From an uncultured Dehalococcoidia bacterium (GTDB taxonomy: Bacteria > Chloroflexota > Dehalococcoidia > Lucifugimonadales > UBA3495): a stretch of 64,000 nt of DNA. This document shows positions 6,734 to 20,200 of this stretch, piece by piece; positions within the stretch are counted from its first letter, which is position 1; each line of letters starts with the position of its first letter. The position numbers and the translations under genes were made by a program. The notes beneath the pieces are model-generated. The model was not told the DNA's origin. It was given only the letters and a program-made list of their open reading frames with translations, and made no database searches. The stretch covers positions 124,001-188,000 of the forward strand of contig CATOSP010000002.1 of assembly GCA_951812625.1 (NCBI GenBank), written 5' to 3'.

Positions 6734-7963
6734 CTAAATGCCTCTGGCCTTTAGCCACTGTTCCTTCTGCTGCTGGCGGGCCTTCTCGTCGGTGGGGCGG
6801 TAGGCGTTCCAGAAGTCCTGCCGGAACCGCTCGAACCTGTCCTCCAGAATTGCCTCTCGCATCTCCCCCATCAGGCGGAAGATAAAGCGTAGGTTGTGGA
6901 TGCTGGCCAGCCTGGGCCCAAGCATCTCCTTGGCCCGGAACAGGTGCCACAGGTAGCCCGCCGGGAACCGCTGGCAGGCATAGCAGTCGCAGCCCTCTTC
7001 CACCGGGCCGGGCTGATCGGCAAACCGCCGCTTGGTAATATCGACCCTTCCGGAGCGGGTGAACAGGGCCCCGTTGCGCGCCACCCGCGTCGGCAGGACG
7101 CAGTCGAACATGTCGACCCCTCTCGCCACCGACTCCACCAGGTCCTCCGGGGAGCCGACACCCATGAGGTAGCGGGGCTTGTTCGCTGGCAACTTGGCCG
7201 CAACCTGCTCGACGGTAGCGTACATCTGCTCCTTGTTCTCGCCAACCGCCAGCCCGCCGATAGCATACCCGTCAAACTCCAGTCCATCGAACTCCAGCCC
7301 GGTGATGTAGCCCGTTGACTCCTCCCGCAGGTCCGGGAACGTGCCGCCCTGAACGATGCCGAAAAGCGCCTGCTTCTCGTCCGCTCCCGACCTCCGGTGG
7401 GTCTGCAGGCACTGCTCGGCCCACCTGTGGGTCCGGTCCATGGCCCGGTGCACCTGCTCCCGCGTTTCCCCGTAGGCTATGCACTGGTCCAGGCACATGA
7501 TGATATCCGCTCCCAGGATGCGCTGGTTCTCCACCGCCATCTCCGGGGTCATCATGTGCTCGCTGCCGTCGATATGGGAGCGGAAGCGTATCCCTCTGTC
7601 GTCCACCTTCCGCAGCGCGCCCATGCTGAAGGCCTGGAACCCGCCGCTGTCGGTCAGTACCGGGCGTGGCCAGCCCATGAAACCGTGGAGGCCTCCGAAA
7701 CTGTCCACGGCGTCCACCCCGGGTCGCAGGTATAGATGGTAGGCATTGGACAGCACCATCTCCGCGCCCGCTGCCAGCACTTCCTCAGGGGTCAGACCCT
7801 TGACGCTGCCCTGGGTGGCCACTGCGGAGAAGACCGGCGTGTGCACCGTGCCGTGGGGAGTGACCATCTCCCCGGCCCGCGCCGTGGTGTCGGAATGCAG
7901 CAGCCGGAACGAGAAGGCGGCTGCGTCCGTTTTGTCCGCTCCTGGCGTGGTATCATCTACCAT
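6734..7963 (-). CDS. tgt: tRNA-guanine transglycosylase (queuine tRNA-ribosyltransferase)
   Basis: A 409-residue enzyme that exchanges guanine 34 of GUN-anticodon tRNAs for preQ1 on the way to queuosine. Seen are the catalytic Asp105 in TDSGGFQ, the substrate loop GGLAVGE, MGVGSPEDLVESVARGVDMFDCVLPTR with the second catalytic Asp, and the zinc site CDCYAC..H (E. coli pattern CxCxxC-H). It has an in-frame 15-bp duplication (7269-7298) giving LEFDGLEFDG immediately before the GGLAVGE loop; other family members have this segment once. The N-terminus has about 15 extra residues. No other queuosine genes lie nearby. Confidence 0.93.
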   Translation of the reverse strand: MVDDTTPGADKTDAAAFSFRLLHSDTTARAGEMVTPHGTVHTPVFSAVATQGSVKGLTPEEVLAAGAEMVLSNAYHLYLRPGVDAVDSFGGLHGFMGWPRPVLTDSGGFQAFSMGALRKVDDRGIRFRSHIDGSEHMMTPEMAVENQRILGADIIMCLDQCIAYGETREQVHRAMDRTHRWAEQCLQTHRRSGADEKQALFGIVQGGTFPDLREESTGYITGLEFDGLEFDGYAIGGLAVGENKEQMYATVEQVAAKLPANKPRYLMGVGSPEDLVESVARGVDMFDCVLPTRVARNGALFTRSGRVDITKRRFADQPGPVEEGCDCYACQRFPAGYLWHLFRAKEMLGPRLASIHNLRFIFRLMGEMREAILEDRFERFRQDFWNAYRPTDEKARQQQKEQWLKARGI

Positions 7964-8077
7964 CAGTAACTCATCCAGCCCCGGCCGGTCGGGCTCCGCG
8001 TATCATGGGTGGTTGTCCCTTGGATCGCCACCTATCCTATCGTGAGGCCGAAAGGGGCGCAACCAACGGGTGACCGC

Positions 8078-8281
8078 TTGTACGAATCGCTGTCCCAGTT
8101 TCTCCGCGCCTTCAGCGCCGGCTACCCTTTGCCCTGGGCCCTGCTGGTAATGGGTGTGGTGGCCTGTTCCAGCCTGGCCCTTTACCTCTTTTGGGAAGTT
8201 GTGCTGCGACTGCTGGCTTCAGCGTTCACATCGGGCAAGACTGACCCCGGCCTTGACCGGGGGAACGGGCGGGGAGACTAG
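8078..8281 (+). CDS. Small membrane protein preceding the TauE/SafE gene
   Basis: About 67 residues with one strong hydrophobic segment (LPWALLVMGVVACSSLALYLFWEVVLRLL) and a polar C-terminus. It ends 1 bp before the ATG of the TauE/SafE gene, so the two are translationally coupled. The start is uncertain (TTG 8078, GTG 8042 or GTG 8009). No family recognised; it may be a partner subunit of the exporter. Confidence 0.5.
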   Translation: MYESLSQFLRAFSAGYPLPWALLVMGVVACSSLALYLFWEVVLRLLASAFTSGKTDPGLDRGNGRGD

Positions 8282-8282
8282 A

Positions 8283-9380
8283 ATGCTCTTCCCAAACGCC
8301 GATGTCATGGTGCATCCGGGACTGCTGCTCCTCTTGGGACTCATCCTGGGCACGCTCAGCGGTTTCTTCGGAGTGGGCGGCGGCTTCCTGATTACCGGCG
8401 GGCTGTTGGTGTTCGGGGTGCCCCCGGTCTTCGCTGTAGGCACGGGTCTGACGCTGATAATGGGGTCGTCCATCATCAACACCCTGAAACACCGGCGTCT
8501 TGGCAACGTTGACTTCAGGCTGGGCGCCCTCATGGTGTCCGGCACGATACCGGGGATATTCCTGGCCGAGCGTCTCAACACCGCGCTGGAGGCTGCTGGA
8601 GTGGCTGGCCCGGTCATCCGCTACATGTACGTGCTGTTCTTGGCTGCCTTGGGGTTGTTCATCGTCTACGACTACCTGCGGGCTCGGGCGCGGCGTCGCC
8701 GTTCTTGGATACCCGAAGAGGACCTGAGCACTGCCCGGCTGACCGAGAAGGTCCGATCTCTCAGGATACCTCCACACCGCATAGGTATCCCTGGAGTTGG
8801 GTCAATCCCTACTTACGTATCGTTGCCCGTATCCGGCATCGACCGCATCTCTGCCTTTGTGCCCATCGGCATTGGGTTTGGTATCGGGTTCATCGCCGGG
8901 TTGCTTGGAGCCGGTGGCGGCTTCATCCTCATGCCGGTGCTGATCTACGTGCTGGGCATCCCGACCACGGTAGCTATCGGCACAGACCTTTTCCAGATAG
9001 TAATCACCGGCTCGGTGGGGACGTTCCTCTATTCCCTGTCCAATCACGTGGACCCGGTGATGGTGGTGATAATGCTGGTCTCGGCGTCGGCAGGAACCCA
9101 ACTGGGAGCGACTGCCACCAGGTTCGTGGAACCGGCCCGGATCCGCATTCTCTACGGCCTGACAGTCCTTAGCGGCAGCGTAGCCGTGGGACTCGAGCAG
9201 GTATCCAGCGCCACCGGCAACGAGTCCTTGTCCACGGCCGCTTCCATCACCCTGTTGGGAGTAGCGGGATTGATGGGCTTGGTAATCCTCGGCTTCCTGG
9301 TAGCCGCCAAGCTGGGACGAAAAGAAGAGACATCCGACACCCCGGCCACAACAGCCCAGGAACGTGCCGAAGGGGACTAG
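8283..9380 (+). CDS. TauE/SafE-family membrane exporter (COG0730)
   Basis: A 365-residue integral membrane protein with two repeated halves, each opening with the family glycine-rich motif: GTLSGFFGVGGGFLITGGLL near residue 22 and GFIAGLLGAGGGFILMPVLI near residue 205. Between the halves is a soluble linker (YLRARARRRRSWIPEEDLS..). Members export sulfite, sulfoacetate or related anions; the substrate here cannot be read. ATG 8283 directly follows the small membrane gene. Transcription probably ends at the hairpin 9398-9420. Confidence 0.88.
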   Translation: MLFPNADVMVHPGLLLLLGLILGTLSGFFGVGGGFLITGGLLVFGVPPVFAVGTGLTLIMGSSIINTLKHRRLGNVDFRLGALMVSGTIPGIFLAERLNTALEAAGVAGPVIRYMYVLFLAALGLFIVYDYLRARARRRRSWIPEEDLSTARLTEKVRSLRIPPHRIGIPGVGSIPTYVSLPVSGIDRISAFVPIGIGFGIGFIAGLLGAGGGFILMPVLIYVLGIPTTVAIGTDLFQIVITGSVGTFLYSLSNHVDPVMVVIMLVSASAGTQLGATATRFVEPARIRILYGLTVLSGSVAVGLEQVSSATGNESLSTAASITLLGVAGLMGLVILGFLVAAKLGRKEETSDTPATTAQERAEGD

Positions 9381-9397
9381 ACGATTATTGACCTCTG

Positions 9398-9420
9398 GAG
9401 AGCCAAGCGTCGTGGCTCTC
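9398..9420. terminator. Bidirectional hairpin between tauE and aroB
   Basis: GAGAGCCA (9398-9405) and TGGCTCTC (9413-9420) form a perfect 8-bp stem in the 42-bp gap between two convergent genes. There is no long T-run, so the strength is uncertain. Confidence 0.5.
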
Positions 9421-9422
9421 GC

Positions 9423-10523
9423 TCACTCCACCAGCTCCCGCACCGTCTTCTCCACCAGGTCCGTGGGCACGTCGCTACGCACCACCGCCTTGCCAACGTC
9501 TTCCAGCATGATCCAGCGGTTGGACCCGCTCTCGGTCTTCTTGTCCAGGGACATAGCCCTTAGCACATCCGATGCCATTACCCCGGCTGCGCGGGTGGGC
9601 AGGTTGAACCGCTCCAGTAACTGGTAGTGCCGGTCCACCAAGTCCTGCGGAATCATGCCCAACTCCTGGGCCATGTGGGCCACTCCAATCATGCCCACCG
9701 AGACACCCTCCCCGTGGAAGAAACGCCCGTACTCGGTGGAGGCTTCCAGGGCGTGGCCGATGGTGTGGCCGTAGTTCAGCAGGATGCGTATCCCAAGAGT
9801 CTCCCGCTCGTCCTGGCTGACAATCTCGGCCTTGATGGCCATGCTGCGGCGGATGACATCGGTGGAAATCTCCGGCTCTACGTCCATCAGGCTCTCGGCA
9901 TGTTCCTCGAAAACGTCGACTAGGTCCGGGTCCAGGATGAAACCGTGCTTGATGGCCTCGGCCCAACCCTCGGACAGCTCCCGTTTGCCCAGCGTAGACA
10001 GGGTCTGGACATCGGCGAACACCCCCCTGGGCTGGTAGAAGGCTCCCACAAGATTCTTGGCCTGGGGCAGGTTCACGGCGACCTTGCCGCCGATGGATGC
10101 GTCCACCATCGCTGCCATGCTGGTGGGCACCTGCACGAAGGGCATCCCTCGCAGGTAGGTGGCCGCCACGAATCCTGCCAGGTCTCCCACTACGCCACCA
10201 CCCACTGCAACGATGACATGACGCCGCTCCGCCCGACGCTCCACGAGCCAATCGTAGACAGCCTGGGCCGACTCAAAACTCTTGCTGGGTTCGCCTGCCG
10301 GGACGACGAAGCAATGGGCCGCGATGCCTGCCGACTGCAACGCCCGCTGCGCCGTGCGTCCGTAAGGGTTCATGACGTTGCTGTCGGTGATGATGTAGGC
10401 GGGACCATTAAGACCCAGGTCCGCAAACCTGTGGCCCAGGTCGTTCAAAACGCCCCATCCGGCCACAACGGGGTAGCTCCCCCCGGAATGTTGCACCACC
10501 GCGGCAAGGTCCTGGTCGGCCAT
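9423..10523 (-). CDS. aroB: 3-Dehydroquinate synthase
   Basis: A 366-residue NAD-dependent, metal-binding enzyme that cyclises DAHP to 3-dehydroquinate, the second step of the shikimate pathway. It shows GGGVVGDLAGFVAATYLRG (nucleotide site), the PTSMAAMVDASIGGKVAVN block, and metal ligands in EAIKHG, LNYGHTIGHALE and FFHGEGVSVGM. A strong ribosome site GGAGGAAG precedes the ATG. It is last in the minus-strand operon VOC - dehydrogenase - aroK - aroB, 15 bp after aroK. Confidence 0.95.
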   Translation of the reverse strand: MADQDLAAVVQHSGGSYPVVAGWGVLNDLGHRFADLGLNGPAYIITDSNVMNPYGRTAQRALQSAGIAAHCFVVPAGEPSKSFESAQAVYDWLVERRAERRHVIVAVGGGVVGDLAGFVAATYLRGMPFVQVPTSMAAMVDASIGGKVAVNLPQAKNLVGAFYQPRGVFADVQTLSTLGKRELSEGWAEAIKHGFILDPDLVDVFEEHAESLMDVEPEISTDVIRRSMAIKAEIVSQDERETLGIRILLNYGHTIGHALEASTEYGRFFHGEGVSVGMIGVAHMAQELGMIPQDLVDRHYQLLERFNLPTRAAGVMASDVLRAMSLDKKTESGSNRWIMLEDVGKAVVRSDVPTDLVEKTVRELVE

Positions 10524-12719: not shown

Positions 12720-13250
12720 ATGCGCTTTGTTCTCGGAGGGCTGGAACGTGAACTGGATTCCGATATGGTCTGGAAGGCCGCACAGCAACATGCGCCTGAC
12801 CCCATTGGCGGACTGCACAGGTACTATGTAGATATCGGTGGTCGCCGATATCCGGTAAAGCAATTGTTTAGTCTTGCTACAGGTATACAACGAAACGAAT
12901 TTATAACTAATGAAGCCGTCCGGCATTTGAAAAGACTTGGGTTCACGGTTGAAGAATCCCCTTGGCCGTCCGCTCCACCGGTGCATGTCCAAAGTCCGGA
13001 TTTTGCGGAGAGTCATCGCCAGCAGGAAACTGAGAATTCGGTAACTTTTGCGGTCTCCCTCGAACCTGACGAAGATGGGTTCATTGTAGCGAGCTGCCCT
13101 CAGTTGCCGGGGTACCACTCTCAGGGCCGGTCAAGGCCAGAGGCGGTGAGGAACATCGGGGAAGCCATCCGAGGCTACATCGCCAGCATGAAATCTCACG
13201 GGGAAGAGGTCCCAAGGGCCAACTGGGAACTGGTAAAGGTTAATGTCTAG
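12720..13250 (+). CDS. hicB: HicB-family antitoxin with an extra N-terminal head domain
   Basis: 176 residues. Residues about 108-176 form the HicB fold (VTFAVSLEPDEDGFIVASCPQLPGYHSQGRSRPEAVRNIGEAI). Residues 1-77 are a separate domain with the pattern YYVDIGGRRYPVKQLFSLATGI..EFITNEAVRHLKRLGFTV, which resembles the small head domain at the N-terminus of some McrA-like HNH nucleases and restriction-type proteins. HicB normally binds and neutralises HicA and represses its own promoter; here a DNA-binding helix-turn-helix tail is absent and the head domain may replace it. AGGAGG precedes the ATG. The stop overlaps the hicA start by 8 bp. The gene is AT-rich relative to its surroundings. Confidence 0.8.
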   Translation: MRFVLGGLERELDSDMVWKAAQQHAPDPIGGLHRYYVDIGGRRYPVKQLFSLATGIQRNEFITNEAVRHLKRLGFTVEESPWPSAPPVHVQSPDFAESHRQQETENSVTFAVSLEPDEDGFIVASCPQLPGYHSQGRSRPEAVRNIGEAIRGYIASMKSHGEEVPRANWELVKVNV

Positions 13251-16652: not shown

Positions 16653-17411
16653 ATGACGCCCTACATCGGTATCACCGGGTTCACCACCGCGGCAGAGGTG
16701 TCTGAGGTCGTCCAAAGCCTGCCGACTACCCCCGACCGGCTGTTGATGTGCGGTGTCCTGTTGAGCAATGCTCTCATGTCTGGATCGCCCAGCGACGCTC
16801 CCGGCCGCTGCCCACCACCGGATGCCATAACCGGTATCTTCTCCGATGACTCCCGCTGCCTCAACCTCGTACATTACCGCCCCCGGGCCGGGATAGACCT
16901 GGTGGAGGCGCTGGCCCGGGCAACCGCCATCGGTGGAGAAAACTGCCACGGGTTGCAGATAAACGCCACCAGGGGCGCTGCCTGGCCGGACCCTCAAGCC
17001 CTACGCGAGTACCGTGACCGCTGCCAGCCGAAACGTATTGTGCTGCAGGTCGGCGGCGAGGCGATGGAGTTGGCCGAGGGGAGTCCGGAGGAAATCGCCC
17101 GCCGCTGCGCGGCCTACGAGGGCATAATCACCGATGCGCTCATCGATGCATCCGAAGGCATGGGCGTTCCCATTGACGCCGCCCGCTCCGCCGCATACCT
17201 GTCCGCCGTGGCGGATGCGGCCCCGACGCTGAGACTGGTAGTCGCTGGCGGCCTCCATGCCGGAAACCTGGCTTCCTTGCTGTCGCCCCTCCTGCCCCGC
17301 TGGTCCCACGTAAGCATCGACGCCGAGGGCCGCCTGCGCGACGACCAAGACAACCTGTCCATCCCCGAGTGCAAGGCATACCTGGCAGCGGCGCTGGAGT
17401 TGCTCAACTAA
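16653..17411 (+). CDS. TIM-barrel protein resembling phosphoribosylanthranilate isomerase
   Basis: A 252-residue protein with a beta/alpha-barrel pattern. The C-terminal half shows ITDALIDASEGMGVPIDAARSA, then LRLVVAGGLHAGNLASLL and a final strand with VSIDAEGRLRD, matching the phosphate-binding end of TrpF (DALLIDxxxGxG, IAGGLxxxNV, xDVxSGVE). The N-terminal half is much less similar and the usual catalytic Cys of TrpF is not evident. It may act on another phosphosugar-type substrate. It begins 20 bp after purA with no trp genes nearby, so it should not be named trpF. Confidence 0.6.
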   Translation: MTPYIGITGFTTAAEVSEVVQSLPTTPDRLLMCGVLLSNALMSGSPSDAPGRCPPPDAITGIFSDDSRCLNLVHYRPRAGIDLVEALARATAIGGENCHGLQINATRGAAWPDPQALREYRDRCQPKRIVLQVGGEAMELAEGSPEEIARRCAAYEGIITDALIDASEGMGVPIDAARSAAYLSAVADAAPTLRLVVAGGLHAGNLASLLSPLLPRWSHVSIDAEGRLRDDQDNLSIPECKAYLAAALELLN

Positions 17412-17465
17412 TCCATAACCCAGTCATCACGGCATTTGCTACAGACTGTTGATGGAGGATGTTCC

Positions 17466-18152
17466 ATGTCAACATCTCTAGTTAAGCGTATCGTTTGCCT
17501 CGCTAACTCACGAAAACTGAGTGGGCGCTGTATCGCAGGCAAGGAGGTTCTACCGGACGGACGACTAGGCGGGTGGGTCCGCCCGGTAAGTGATAGGGAA
17601 AACGAAGAAGTGTCAGAATACGAACGGCAATACGAGGACGGCAGCGATCCGCGCGTTCTTGATGTTATTCATATGCCTCTCCTTAACCCTAAACCCAGGA
17701 ACTACCAGCGGGAAAATTGGTTGCTTGATCCGGAATGTTACTGGGAGAAAGCTGGCCAGATGAGACCGGATGAATTGGAACCGTTGGTCGATCAAGCGTC
17801 GCCGCTCTGGATTAACGACTATAGCAGCTACAATGGACTAAACGATAGGATACCTATCGAAATTGCTAGCTCTCTCAACCACTCATTGCGGCTGTTGAGA
17901 GTGAGCGCCCTAGAATTGGTTGTGGACCAACCCGGCATGAATTTTGGCAACTATCGTCGAAGTGTGCAGGGCCGATTCCAGCACTATGGAACGGATTACT
18001 GGCTTCGGATGACCGACCCCGTGTACGAGCGACAGTACCTGCAACTGGACAATGGTATCTACGCAATCGGTGGGTGCTTCCTCACTGTAAGCCTCGGCGA
18101 GCCATATCAAGGCCATAGCTATAAGTTAATTGCTGCAATCATCGGGCCTTGA
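17466..18152 (+). CDS. Dual OB-domain protein (DuOB-like)
   Basis: About 228 residues. The start KRIVCLANSRKLSGRCIAGKEV..GGWVRPVSDRE, the middle DVIHMPLLNPKPRNYQRENWLLD and the end GGCFLTVSLGEPYQGHSYKLIAAI are characteristic of proteins described as dual OB-fold domains that travel with DUF488. No enzymatic motif is apparent; an OB pair suggests binding of nucleic acid or a small ligand. ATG 17466 follows TGGAGG. It is the first of three co-directional genes with two DUF488 proteins and is lower in GC than purA upstream. Confidence 0.65.
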   Translation: MSTSLVKRIVCLANSRKLSGRCIAGKEVLPDGRLGGWVRPVSDRENEEVSEYERQYEDGSDPRVLDVIHMPLLNPKPRNYQRENWLLDPECYWEKAGQMRPDELEPLVDQASPLWINDYSSYNGLNDRIPIEIASSLNHSLRLLRVSALELVVDQPGMNFGNYRRSVQGRFQHYGTDYWLRMTDPVYERQYLQLDNGIYAIGGCFLTVSLGEPYQGHSYKLIAAIIGP

Positions 18153-18165
18153 TGGAGATGCTAGA

Positions 18166-18801
18166 GTGAGTGTAACGCAAAATCCCGTATTCACTGTCGG
18201 ACACTCCAACCATTCACCGGAGGGCTTCATCAAGTTGCTGCTGCGGCACCGTGTGGACGAAGTGGTGGATATCCGCTCGTCGCCATACAGTCGTCATATC
18301 CCACATTTCAATCGTGACGTTCTCGAAGAAGTTTTGGAACAGATAGGTATCTCATATGTGTTCCTTGGCGAAGAACTTGGCGGCAGGCCGCCAGACCACT
18401 CATGCTACGACGCAAATGGGCGAGTCCGTTATGATTTGTTGGCGGACACGGACCCGTTTGACGATGGCATAAGGCAGACAACGCGCCGGGCCGATGATTG
18501 CCGCCTCGCGCTTATGTGTACGGAGAAAGAACCGCTGGAGTGCCACCGCACGCTACTGGTCGCTAAGGTGCTTGTGGAGCGAGGGGTTGCCGTTGAACAT
18601 ATCCTGGCTAGTGGTCGTTTAGAAAGTCATGACGCTGTGATGGAACGGCTGATGGACATTTTCAAGTTGCCGCGCAATGGAGACATGTTCCGCTCACGGT
18701 CTGATGTTGTCGCCGAAGCCCTGGAACGTCAGTCCCAGAAAGTGGCTTATGTCGGGGGGGTGATGCCCGTCGGTGTGGATGATTGGGAGAATACGTTTTG
18801 A
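18166..18801 (+). CDS. DUF488 family protein, first copy
   Basis: About 211 residues. DUF488 hallmarks are FTVGHSN at the N-terminus, VVDIRSSPYSRHIPHFN, YVFLGEELGGRP, and the C-terminal ALMCTEKEPLECHRTLLVAK (the Cys-x-x-x-x-x-x-Cys-His-Arg type signature). GTG at 18166 with GGAG upstream is preferred. About 70 residues follow the core domain, which is longer than many family members. Biochemical function unknown; the Cys-His-Arg motif suggests a thiol-dependent or metal-dependent reaction. It overlaps the next gene by 4 bp (TTGA). Confidence 0.82.
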   Translation: MSVTQNPVFTVGHSNHSPEGFIKLLLRHRVDEVVDIRSSPYSRHIPHFNRDVLEEVLEQIGISYVFLGEELGGRPPDHSCYDANGRVRYDLLADTDPFDDGIRQTTRRADDCRLALMCTEKEPLECHRTLLVAKVLVERGVAVEHILASGRLESHDAVMERLMDIFKLPRNGDMFRSRSDVVAEALERQSQKVAYVGGVMPVGVDDWENTF

Positions 18802-19235
18802 GGGTTTACACCATTGGGTTCACGAAAAAGTCGGCGTCGGACTTTTTTGAGTTGCTGCGAGAGTCCGGCGCAAAGCGTCTGGTGGATGTCCGGCTCAGCA
18901 ACGTATCCCAATTGTCAGGTTTTGCTAAAAGAGACGATCTGGAGTATTTCCTGGAAAAAATCTGCCGGATGAAATACGTCCATCTACCGGAGTTGGCGCC
19001 CACCAGAGAGATGTTGGACGCTTACCGGAAATACCACCACGATTGGGAAACTTACGAGCGTCAGTTTCTCGCTCTGATGGACGAGCGGCGGATTGGCAAG
19101 AAGGGCATAAAGAGAGTGATTTCAAACGGATGTCTGTTGTGCAGCGAGGACAAGCCAGACCGATGCCATCGTAGGCTGGTGGCTGAATATTTGGATCGGC
19201 AGTGGGGCGATGTCGAAATCGTCCATCTGGGCTGA
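18798..19235 (+). CDS. DUF488 family protein, second copy
   Basis: About 145 residues, the compact form of the family: VYTIGFTKKSASDFFELLRESGAKRLVDVRL, SGFAKRDDLEYFLEKI, YVHLPELAPT, and GCLLCSEDKPDRCHRRLVAEYL at the C-terminus. TTG 18798 overlaps the stop of the first DUF488 gene. The two copies are only distantly similar, so they are anciently diverged partners, not a recent tandem duplication. The phosphotriesterase-family gene starts 14 bp downstream and may be transcribed with them. Confidence 0.82.
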   Translation: MRVYTIGFTKKSASDFFELLRESGAKRLVDVRLSNVSQLSGFAKRDDLEYFLEKICRMKYVHLPELAPTREMLDAYRKYHHDWETYERQFLALMDERRIGKKGIKRVISNGCLLCSEDKPDRCHRRLVAEYLDRQWGDVEIVHLG

Positions 19236-19249
19236 CAGGAGGGACCTAT

Positions 19250-20200
19250 ATGTCGCAGGTCAACACAGTGTTGGGGCCGGTGGATACCACCGAACTGGGG
19301 TTTACCCTCAGCCATGAGCACATAACCCTGGGGGCCGCTGGGGCTGCGGCCACCTACCCCGGTTTCCAGGACCGCCAGCATATTGCCGACTCCGCCACTG
19401 CGGCTCTTACCGAAGCTTACGAAGGCGGTGTGCGGACCATTATCGACGTCACTACCTTTGACCTGGGGCGGGACGTTTCGATGATGGTCGAGGTAAGCCA
19501 GCGCACCGGGGTCCACGTCATCCCCTGCACCGGGAACCACCTGGCCGTGCCGCGTATCTTCTGGGGAGCGCCGGTTGAACGGGTCGCCGAGCTTTTCATC
19601 AAGGAAATCGAGGAAGGGATTGAGGACTCCGAGGTCAAGGCCGGGATCATCAAGGTCGCCAGCGACCGGGGTGGCGTGACGCCCAACGAGGAGATTGTGC
19701 TCCGGGCCGCGGCACGGGCCTCCAACGCCACCGGAACGCGCATCAGCACCCATACTTGGTCCCCGGACCGGGTCGGGGACCAGCAGGTGCGCATTCTCAA
19801 GGAGGAGGGCGTTGACCTCAACCGGGTGTACGTGGGCCACAGCAACGACGATACTGATGTCGGCTATCTCACGGGATTGCTGGAGGAGGGGGTGTGGCTG
19901 GGCCTGGACCGCTATCCCGGCGGTAGGACTTCCGAAACCCCGACTTGGGATGTGCGTACTGCCGTTGTGAAGCAGTTGATCGACGCGGGCTGGGCGCACC
20001 GGCTGATGCTGTCCCATGACCATTCAACCCCGGCGGTGCAGCCTTCCGAGGAACTGCGCCGGGAGCGCGGCGAATTCAACCCCGACGGATACCTGTTCAT
20101 CACCCGGAACGTCCTGCCCCGGCTACTGGAGTTGGGAGCCACGGACGCCGATGTGCAGGCCATCATGGTTGACAACCCCCGCCGATTCTTCGAGGACTGA
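19250..20200 (+). CDS. Phosphotriesterase-family metal-dependent hydrolase
   Basis: A 316-residue amidohydrolase-superfamily enzyme of the PTE/PLL/PHP group. It has HxH in LSHEHIT, the bridging Lys in GIIKVAS, His in ISTHTW, His in VYVGHSND and the catalytic Asp in LSHDHS, that is, a complete binuclear metal site. Members hydrolyse lactones, organophosphates or related esters; the substrate cannot be inferred. A good ribosome site AGGAGGG precedes the ATG. Confidence 0.9.
   Translation: MSQVNTVLGPVDTTELGFTLSHEHITLGAAGAAATYPGFQDRQHIADSATAALTEAYEGGVRTIIDVTTFDLGRDVSMMVEVSQRTGVHVIPCTGNHLAVPRIFWGAPVERVAELFIKEIEEGIEDSEVKAGIIKVASDRGGVTPNEEIVLRAAARASNATGTRISTHTWSPDRVGDQQVRILKEEGVDLNRVYVGHSNDDTDVGYLTGLLEEGVWLGLDRYPGGRTSETPTWDVRTAVVKQLIDAGWAHRLMLSHDHSTPAVQPSEELRRERGEFNPDGYLFITRNVLPRLLELGATDADVQAIMVDNPRRFFED

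Follow-up and report, generated by a model that had tools for sequence, protein, structure and literature searches.

How three small genes of obscure biochemistry come to stand together at positions 17466-19235 of the DNA of an uncultured Dehalococcoidia bacterium, and what they do there, is the question raised by this locus. The 64,000-nucleotide stretch that was analysed is referred to throughout as the window. Within it, a gene for a protein with a dual OB fold (DuOB) is followed by genes for two diverged DUF488 proteins, an arrangement that could serve defence against foreign DNA, the repair of the host's own DNA, signalling, or simply its own maintenance. These explanations make different demands on the structure of the genes, their distribution among genomes and the company that they keep, and each is weighed below where the evidence that bears on it is presented.

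Structure of the gene trio

The preliminary description reported three co-directional, overlapping, lower-GC genes, and most of this is borne out by the open reading frames, the Shine-Dalgarno sequences and the Pfam domains. Gene A (17466-18152, forward strand) begins with ATG, is preceded by the Shine-Dalgarno sequence GGAGG at 17454-17458, and encodes the DuOB protein, of 228 amino acids. Gene B (18166-18801, forward strand), which encodes a DUF488 protein of 211 amino acids and constitutes an exchangeable third component, begins with GTG and is preceded by GGAG at 18154-18157. Gene C (18798-19235, forward strand), the most conserved component, encodes a DUF488/DUF488-N3a protein of 145 amino acids, begins with TTG, and has GGGAG at 18785-18789 on the same strand. 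The overlap exists between B and C, where the stop of one and the start of the other share the 4 nt at 18798-18801, but not between A and B, which lie 13 nt apart when the start that has a Shine-Dalgarno sequence and is in line with homologues is used. A complex of the three products is plausible. The GC content of the trio is 52.6%, against 60.5% for the window, and 0.16% of sampled 1770-bp windows are equally low.

The genes occupy a slot whose borders are clear and lie outside the module. On the left is a TIM-barrel-like gene of unknown function that has no Pfam match (16653-17411, forward strand), and on the right is a gene of the phosphotriesterase family (19250-20200, forward strand; PF02126, 2e-68).

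Family membership and catalogue status

The assignment of one dual OB-fold and two DUF488 proteins stands, since the Pfam matches lie above the curated cut-offs. Protein A matches DuOB (PF22557) over profile positions 1-210 of 210, with an E-value of 8.7e-69 and 232.2 bits (cut-off 27). Protein B matches DUF488 (PF04343) with an E-value of 3.6e-19 and 70 bits (cut-off 22.2), and C matches the same family with 1.3e-24 and 87.6 bits; C also matches DUF488-N3a (PF22751; 4.9e-11, 43.4 bits, cut-off 27), for which the Pfam scan of B gave no match at E <= 0.1. An NCBIfam scan of A, B and C gave nothing at E <= 0.1. Comparison of profile with profile shows that B and C are related to each other (probability 98%).

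In PADLOC-DB, A matches PDC-M45A (1.6e-92), B matches PDC-M45B (4.5e-76) and C matches PDC-M45C (9.3e-72). All three models of the system are thus matched, and the trio has therefore already been catalogued as the candidate phage-defence module PDC-M45, where PDC stands for phage-defence candidate. The earlier domain assignments and the low GC content fit, as does the resemblance to accessory nucleic-acid or defence modules that had been proposed for the cassette. A literature search by the name PDC-M45 found no paper and no demonstrated activity for the candidate, and a search on DUF488 found, judging by titles, no paper on its function and no described activity. Burroughs and Aravind reportedly grouped DUF488, DUF4326 and RapZ-C in a rhodanese-phosphatase superfamily in 2023, and the abstract is said to propose a possible role for DUF488 in the processing of DNA ends within conflict systems. 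A passage of PMC12704722 describes an archaeal DUF488-HTH fusion, of the ParB-CTPase fold, which binds CTP.

Conserved motifs and predicted folds

The Cys-His-Arg motifs remarked on earlier take the form C-x-E-x2-P-x2-C-H-R, which is present in 44 of the 44 aligned B proteins and in 47 of the 48 aligned C proteins. The residues concerned are C118-x-E120, P123 and C126-H-R in B, and C115-x-E117, P120 and C123-H124-R125 in C. In the structural model of C (pLDDT 91.4), these residues and the conserved D30 and R32 are placed around strand-helix junctions, with the loop from C115 to R125 running between the strand 111-115 and the helix 124-136. The model of DuOB (pLDDT 92.7) appears to consist of two OB-like barrels which together span its whole length.

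The closest structures to the model of C include the CbiL methylase (Z 7.7, rmsd 3.5, 118 residues aligned), an archaeal phosphatase of the protein-tyrosine-phosphatase (PTP) fold (Z 6.9, rmsd 3.4, 110 aligned), diphthine synthase (Z 6.8, rmsd 3.2, 105 aligned) and PRL1 (Z 6.5, rmsd 3.0, 100 aligned), so that the PTP-fold matches are tied with tetrapyrrole methylases and all of them have Z < 8. The best matches of DuOB are DNA-binding proteins with tandem OB folds, namely LEF-3 (Z 6.2, rmsd 7.1, 159 aligned), RPA70 (Z 5.1, rmsd 4.6, 168 aligned) and the HIN domain of IFI16 (Z 4.8, rmsd 4.9, 153 aligned). DuOB thus models like an RPA-type tandem-OB fold, and C has PTP-fold phosphatases among its best matches; with every Z below 8, this evidence from folds is suggestive only. 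RapZ-C does not appear among the 50 structural matches listed for C, an absence which excludes nothing.

Sequence searches against solved structures produced no credible hit, whether with A, B and C individually or with the B and C profiles; matches to FokI, a hydroxylase and LacI were rejected as being at chance level. With Foldseek, neither C nor DuOB had a match in the PDB at E <= 0.001. Among viral models, C has three matches at E <= 0.001, the best of which is protein 174 of Pseudomonas phage PhiPA3; phages therefore carry similar folds.

Distribution and horizontal exchange

The genome from which the window comes has one DuOB gene and three DUF488 matches, two of which lie within the trio. 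Among 59 relatives, counting this genome itself, DuOB occurs in 13, of which 9 are full-length and close, 3 are distant and 1 is a fragment of 21 residues that falls below the cut-off; strong matches to C (E <= 1e-50) occur in 12 of the 59. Across the phylum, DuOB is matched in 45 of 400 genomes, in 42 of them above the cut-off. DUF488 itself is widespread, being matched in 6 of 14 control genomes, including that of E. coli.

Across phyla, 89 loci in named genomes were confirmed, and the best 80 of these, several of which end at contig edges, come from Chloroflexota, Proteobacteria, Latescibacterota, Acidobacteriota, Nitrospira, Spirochaetes, Planctomycetes, Actinobacteria and others. If a gene for an mSLOG-DUF4326 protein is denoted by S, the content of these best 80 loci is A+B+C in 64, A+B in 5, A only in 5, A+C+S in 5 and A+C in 1; the gene order of the window recurs among them. 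On viral contigs, 73 relatives of C were found, and 135 plasmid records hold a relative of C. The distribution of DuOB is thus patchy and is spread over many phyla, plasmids and viral contigs, and the module is horizontally exchanged. In some loci of Chloroflexota (L075, 9258-11524; L078, 10001-12145; L018; L021), a tandem pair of DuOB genes stands ahead of the DUF488 genes.

The genomic slot in the sister genus

A module that is exchanged between lineages can nevertheless appear to be fixed in place. A homologue of the TIM-barrel-like gene upstream of the trio is present in 13 of the 50 family genomes, counting the genome studied here, and all 13 places were examined. Genes A, B and C follow it in 9 of the 13; the exceptions are the genomes G464 (B and C), G457 (a fragment of A, and C), G028 (C only) and G025, which has none of the three in the slot and carries its trio elsewhere. 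Within the stretch that was read, 9 of the 13 slots are followed by the phosphotriesterase gene; in the remainder, the contig stops short or no such gene was found in that stretch. Both in the window and in the sister genus, the genes that flank the trio are of metabolic type.

The copy of C in G464 is 98% identical to the copy at the other locus of G025 and 82% identical to that of the window, but only 58-64% identical to the copies that occupy the same slot in its own genus. The phosphotriesterase of G464, by contrast, shares 90-93% identity with those of the genus. The stability of position thus masks allele replacement and loss, as is typical of accessory modules that are exchanged. The preliminary description had set against a defence role the case of a trio conserved vertically in all relatives, beside housekeeping genes and with no link to defence; what is found is DuOB in 13 of 59 relatives, with swapped alleles.

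The partial losses in the sister genus also lend some weight to the suggestion that the trio is a selfish maintenance module of the toxin-antitoxin kind, as does a weakly HigB-like gene in the slot of G028, which falls below the Pfam cut-off. Such a module is very improbable, because C persists alone with no evident antitoxin, the active-site motifs are kept, and the full trio is retained in most of the slots. In relatives (L151, 7054-7808; L152, 2102-2877; L156, 5510-6380), a weakly HigB-like open reading frame and a small one downstream of it lie between the TIM-barrel-like gene and the remnants of DUF488 genes; the pair of L151 was scanned. The designation of a toxin-antitoxin pair in the slot was rejected, the HigB match in one relative reaching 20.3 bits against a cut-off of 27.

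Exchange of the third component

The composition of the module varies in a regular way. On the 36 viral contigs which have a nearly full-length C (L165-L200), the content is A+B+C in 8, A+C+S in 20, A+C in 2 (both close to a contig end), C+S in 3 and B+C in 3, counts which are not independent, many of the entries being near relatives. B and S occur together in none of these 36 viral loci and in none of the best 80 of the 89 genome loci. The order A-C-S is also found on three small plasmids (L129-L131) of Acinetobacter, Citrobacter and Klebsiella. In L106, S matches mSLOG with 2.5e-34 and DUF4326 with 1.3e-19. C looks like the constant enzyme of the system, and B or S like an exchangeable third part.

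The preliminary description spoke of unknown biochemistry, which is partly right, but predictions at the level of the family exist, reportedly for DUF488 and also for DUF4326. In the latter case, passages of PMC9503650 and PMC7824862 predict that the domain acts on ADP-ribose products or couples NAD signalling to DNA modification. These predictions and the interchangeability of B with the mSLOG-DUF4326 protein favour an explanation in which the trio is a nucleotide-signal module: mSLOG-DUF4326 or DUF488-B would make or remove a signal of the phosphate or ADP-ribose type, DuOB would sense foreign nucleic acid, and C would be the effector or the off-switch. This explanation is nonetheless improbable, given that the A-B-C form of the window contains no SLOG domain, nucleotide cyclase or second-messenger effector and that the homology between the DUF4326 and DUF488 profiles is weak (for C, probability 18.9 and E 0.0012 over only 19 columns; for B, probability 1.4).

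Neighbouring genes and the defence context

If the module acts against foreign DNA, then its relatives might be expected to lie near other defence genes, as a survey proposed in the preliminary description was meant to reveal. In 22 of the best 80 of the 89 loci, a gene with Schlafen/AlbA_2 and HATPase_c_4 domains lies on the same strand within 2.5 kb upstream, as a rule directly upstream of the trio; scans of the genes in L101, L064 and L109 showed these domains, as did 13 of the 115 neighbouring proteins sampled. Four of the same 80 loci (L098, L103, L111, L121) have DuOB fused behind a RecQ helicase, as in the gene at 7781-10675 of L103, where scanning identified DEAD, RQC and HRDC domains ahead of a C-terminal DuOB. 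One or two DUF488 genes come next after each of these fusion genes.

An HmaB-type methylase gene stands ahead of A in L050 and L067, where C is followed by a gene encoding some 1,120 amino acids, which is HmaC in L050; the methylase was identified with its model in L068, and in L050 and L067 by similarity. Genes resembling type III methyltransferases precede A in L088 and L109. Among annotated plasmids, one from Agrobacterium has CBASS genes and an integrase close to the trio, one from Allochromatium has it among cas1, csx16, csm6 and cmr genes (type III-B CRISPR), and one from Rhodovastum has it among mostly hypothetical genes and one that is SNF2-related. Other direct neighbours include SufBD-like, TraB-like and TPP-enzyme genes, and many near neighbours are metabolic. 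In L108, a gene for a DUF5131 protein (7898-9886), whose N terminus matches PDC-M30B/M41B and is followed by PDC-M30A/M41A in PADLOC, immediately precedes a DuOB-DUF488 set that is damaged.

For a quantitative contrast, 115 near and 119 far proteins, drawn at random from the 193 and 207 that passed filters for length and stops (288 and 327 before the filters), were compared with PADLOC. They match 61 and 26 families respectively at E <= 1e-15, figures in which one protein may match many families, 25 families are listed and the proteins themselves cannot be counted; by named system, the near and far lists are about equally broad. The contrast in defence genes between near and far is modest and is not taken here as strong evidence.

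Within the window, a PADLOC scan of 48 proteins (with A but leaving out B and C) found at 1e-15 only A and one CARF5--CARF_ADA protein, and hence no other defence system beside the trio. The CARF5--CARF_ADA match (6e-33) may be an ordinary protein resembling adenosine deaminase. The gene at 12720-13247 on the forward strand encodes a C-terminal HicB-like antitoxin domain (28 bits, cut-off 27) preceded by about 100 residues with no Pfam match, and no partner toxin was identified. The outcome of the survey is mixed: CBASS, type III-B CRISPR, Hma and viral contigs speak for an association with defence, but the contrast between near and far is modest and the window adds nothing beyond the single CARF_ADA match.

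Solitary DUF488-C genes in formaldehyde islands

Relatives of C that are 53-63% identical to it occur alone in plasmid formaldehyde-resistance islands, mostly beside uvrA and uvrB (for example at 9001-9432 in each of L132, L133, L134 and L135). Genes for the detoxification or sensing of formaldehyde lie near the solitary gene in 7 of the 7 plasmid places that were opened, and uvrA and/or uvrB in 6 of them, in a sample that includes two pairs of near copies (L134 with L249, L132 with L248) and a decayed member, L247; the seventh place, in Shinella, has a recombination gene annotated as RarA-like. At the DNA level, the solitary form of Enterobacterales is present in 85 records, and at least 80% of the 9-kb island is likewise contained in 85, so these are mostly one island counted repeatedly. 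The motif is kept in the four intact and distinct solitary proteins. In a tree of 77 rows, the four solitary rows are nested among the C rows of trios (96/83). Descent of the solitary genes from those of trios is not concluded from this, since a 43-row tree which keeps all the trio C proteins together is not rejected (p-AU 0.669) and has the higher likelihood. A literature search found no paper that joins formaldehyde, uvrA and DUF3422, and none on the topic for frmR with uvrA.

This setting fits repair rather than defence, and it raises the possibility that the trio is itself primarily concerned with the repair of DNA damage such as adducts, crosslinks and blocked ends, and not with phages. 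DuOB would then coat single-stranded DNA, while the DUF488 proteins, by themselves or together with UvrAB or RecQ, would clean up aldehyde adducts or ends that are damaged. The solitary genes, the RecQ-DuOB fusions, the housekeeping neighbours and the positional stability in the sister genus all argue for this reading. It is rather unlikely all the same, because the distribution is patchy and crosses phyla, alleles are swapped, defence genes are linked in several loci, and no formaldehyde gene was noted beside the trio of the window.

A bolder proposal would accommodate both settings: DUF488-C might be an enzyme of new chemistry for DNA adducts or ends, which acts with DuOB and a partner against phages and, in the formaldehyde islands, alone with UvrAB. 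This is somewhat unlikely, but if it were true, then a single enzyme family would join antiviral defence to the repair of aldehyde damage, and such a link would explain the function of the candidate system PDC-M45. Of the leads that emerge, the solitary genes close to UvrAB are the most useful.

A proposed model for the action of the trio

The explanation put forward here, at a confidence which comes near to an even chance while falling a little short of it, is that the trio is a compact mobile module for conflict over DNA, in which DuOB binds single-stranded DNA or ends and the DUF488 enzymes process the ends or adducts of invading DNA. DuOB, with its RPA-like tandem OB folds, would bind phage DNA, whether invading or replicating, where it is single-stranded or has exposed ends, and would bring in the DUF488 enzymes. 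The Cys...Cys-His-Arg loop of these enzymes, placed at a strand-helix junction, may resemble the active-site loop of rhodaneses and tyrosine phosphatases. B, C or both would then process a DNA end or adduct, for instance through the transfer of a phosphate or some other small group, and so put the foreign DNA beyond replication or repair. C would be the constant catalytic part, and B, whether DUF488 or mSLOG-DUF4326, an exchangeable partner whose part may be to sense a nucleotide signal or to process it.

What the analysis shows is the gene content of the module, its motifs and conservation, the swapping of partners, the spread between lineages and the predicted folds, whereas the binding of single-stranded DNA, the formation of a complex, the chemistry and the anti-phage effect are inferred. 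Weighing against the defence reading are the fold matches with Z < 8, the weak relation of DUF488 to DUF4326, the modest defence contrast, the metabolic neighbours and the lack of another defence system in the window. The exchange of B for mSLOG-DUF4326, the fusions with RecQ and the solitary C genes near uvrA and uvrB suggest that the substrate is a DNA end or adduct, a hint which offers simple assays.

Comparison with known systems

The closest known system is PDC-M45 itself. The trio of the window matches all three of its models with adjacent, co-directional genes (a 13-nt gap and a 4-nt overlap), and no feature was found that separates it from the PADLOC candidate. At the level of the protein family, B and C share the match to DUF488, and C alone adds DUF488-N3a.

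The likeness of DuOB to RPA70, LEF-3 and the HIN-200 proteins lies in the two OB-like barrels of the model (Z 4.8-6.2, with 153-168 residues aligned), but DuOB has no sequence match to them. The signature of the active-site loop in the rhodanese/protein-tyrosine-phosphatase superfamily is C-x5-R. The model of C resembles this superfamily in having a Cys-loop-Arg at a strand-helix junction and in its PTP-fold matches (Z 6.9 and 6.5); it differs in that its loop is longer than C-x5-R and adds Cys-His, and Z remains below 8. The A-C-S variant, finally, has A and C genes that are adjacent and homologous to those of the window, but in it mSLOG-DUF4326, usually located after C, replaces the DUF488-B that in the window lies between A and C.
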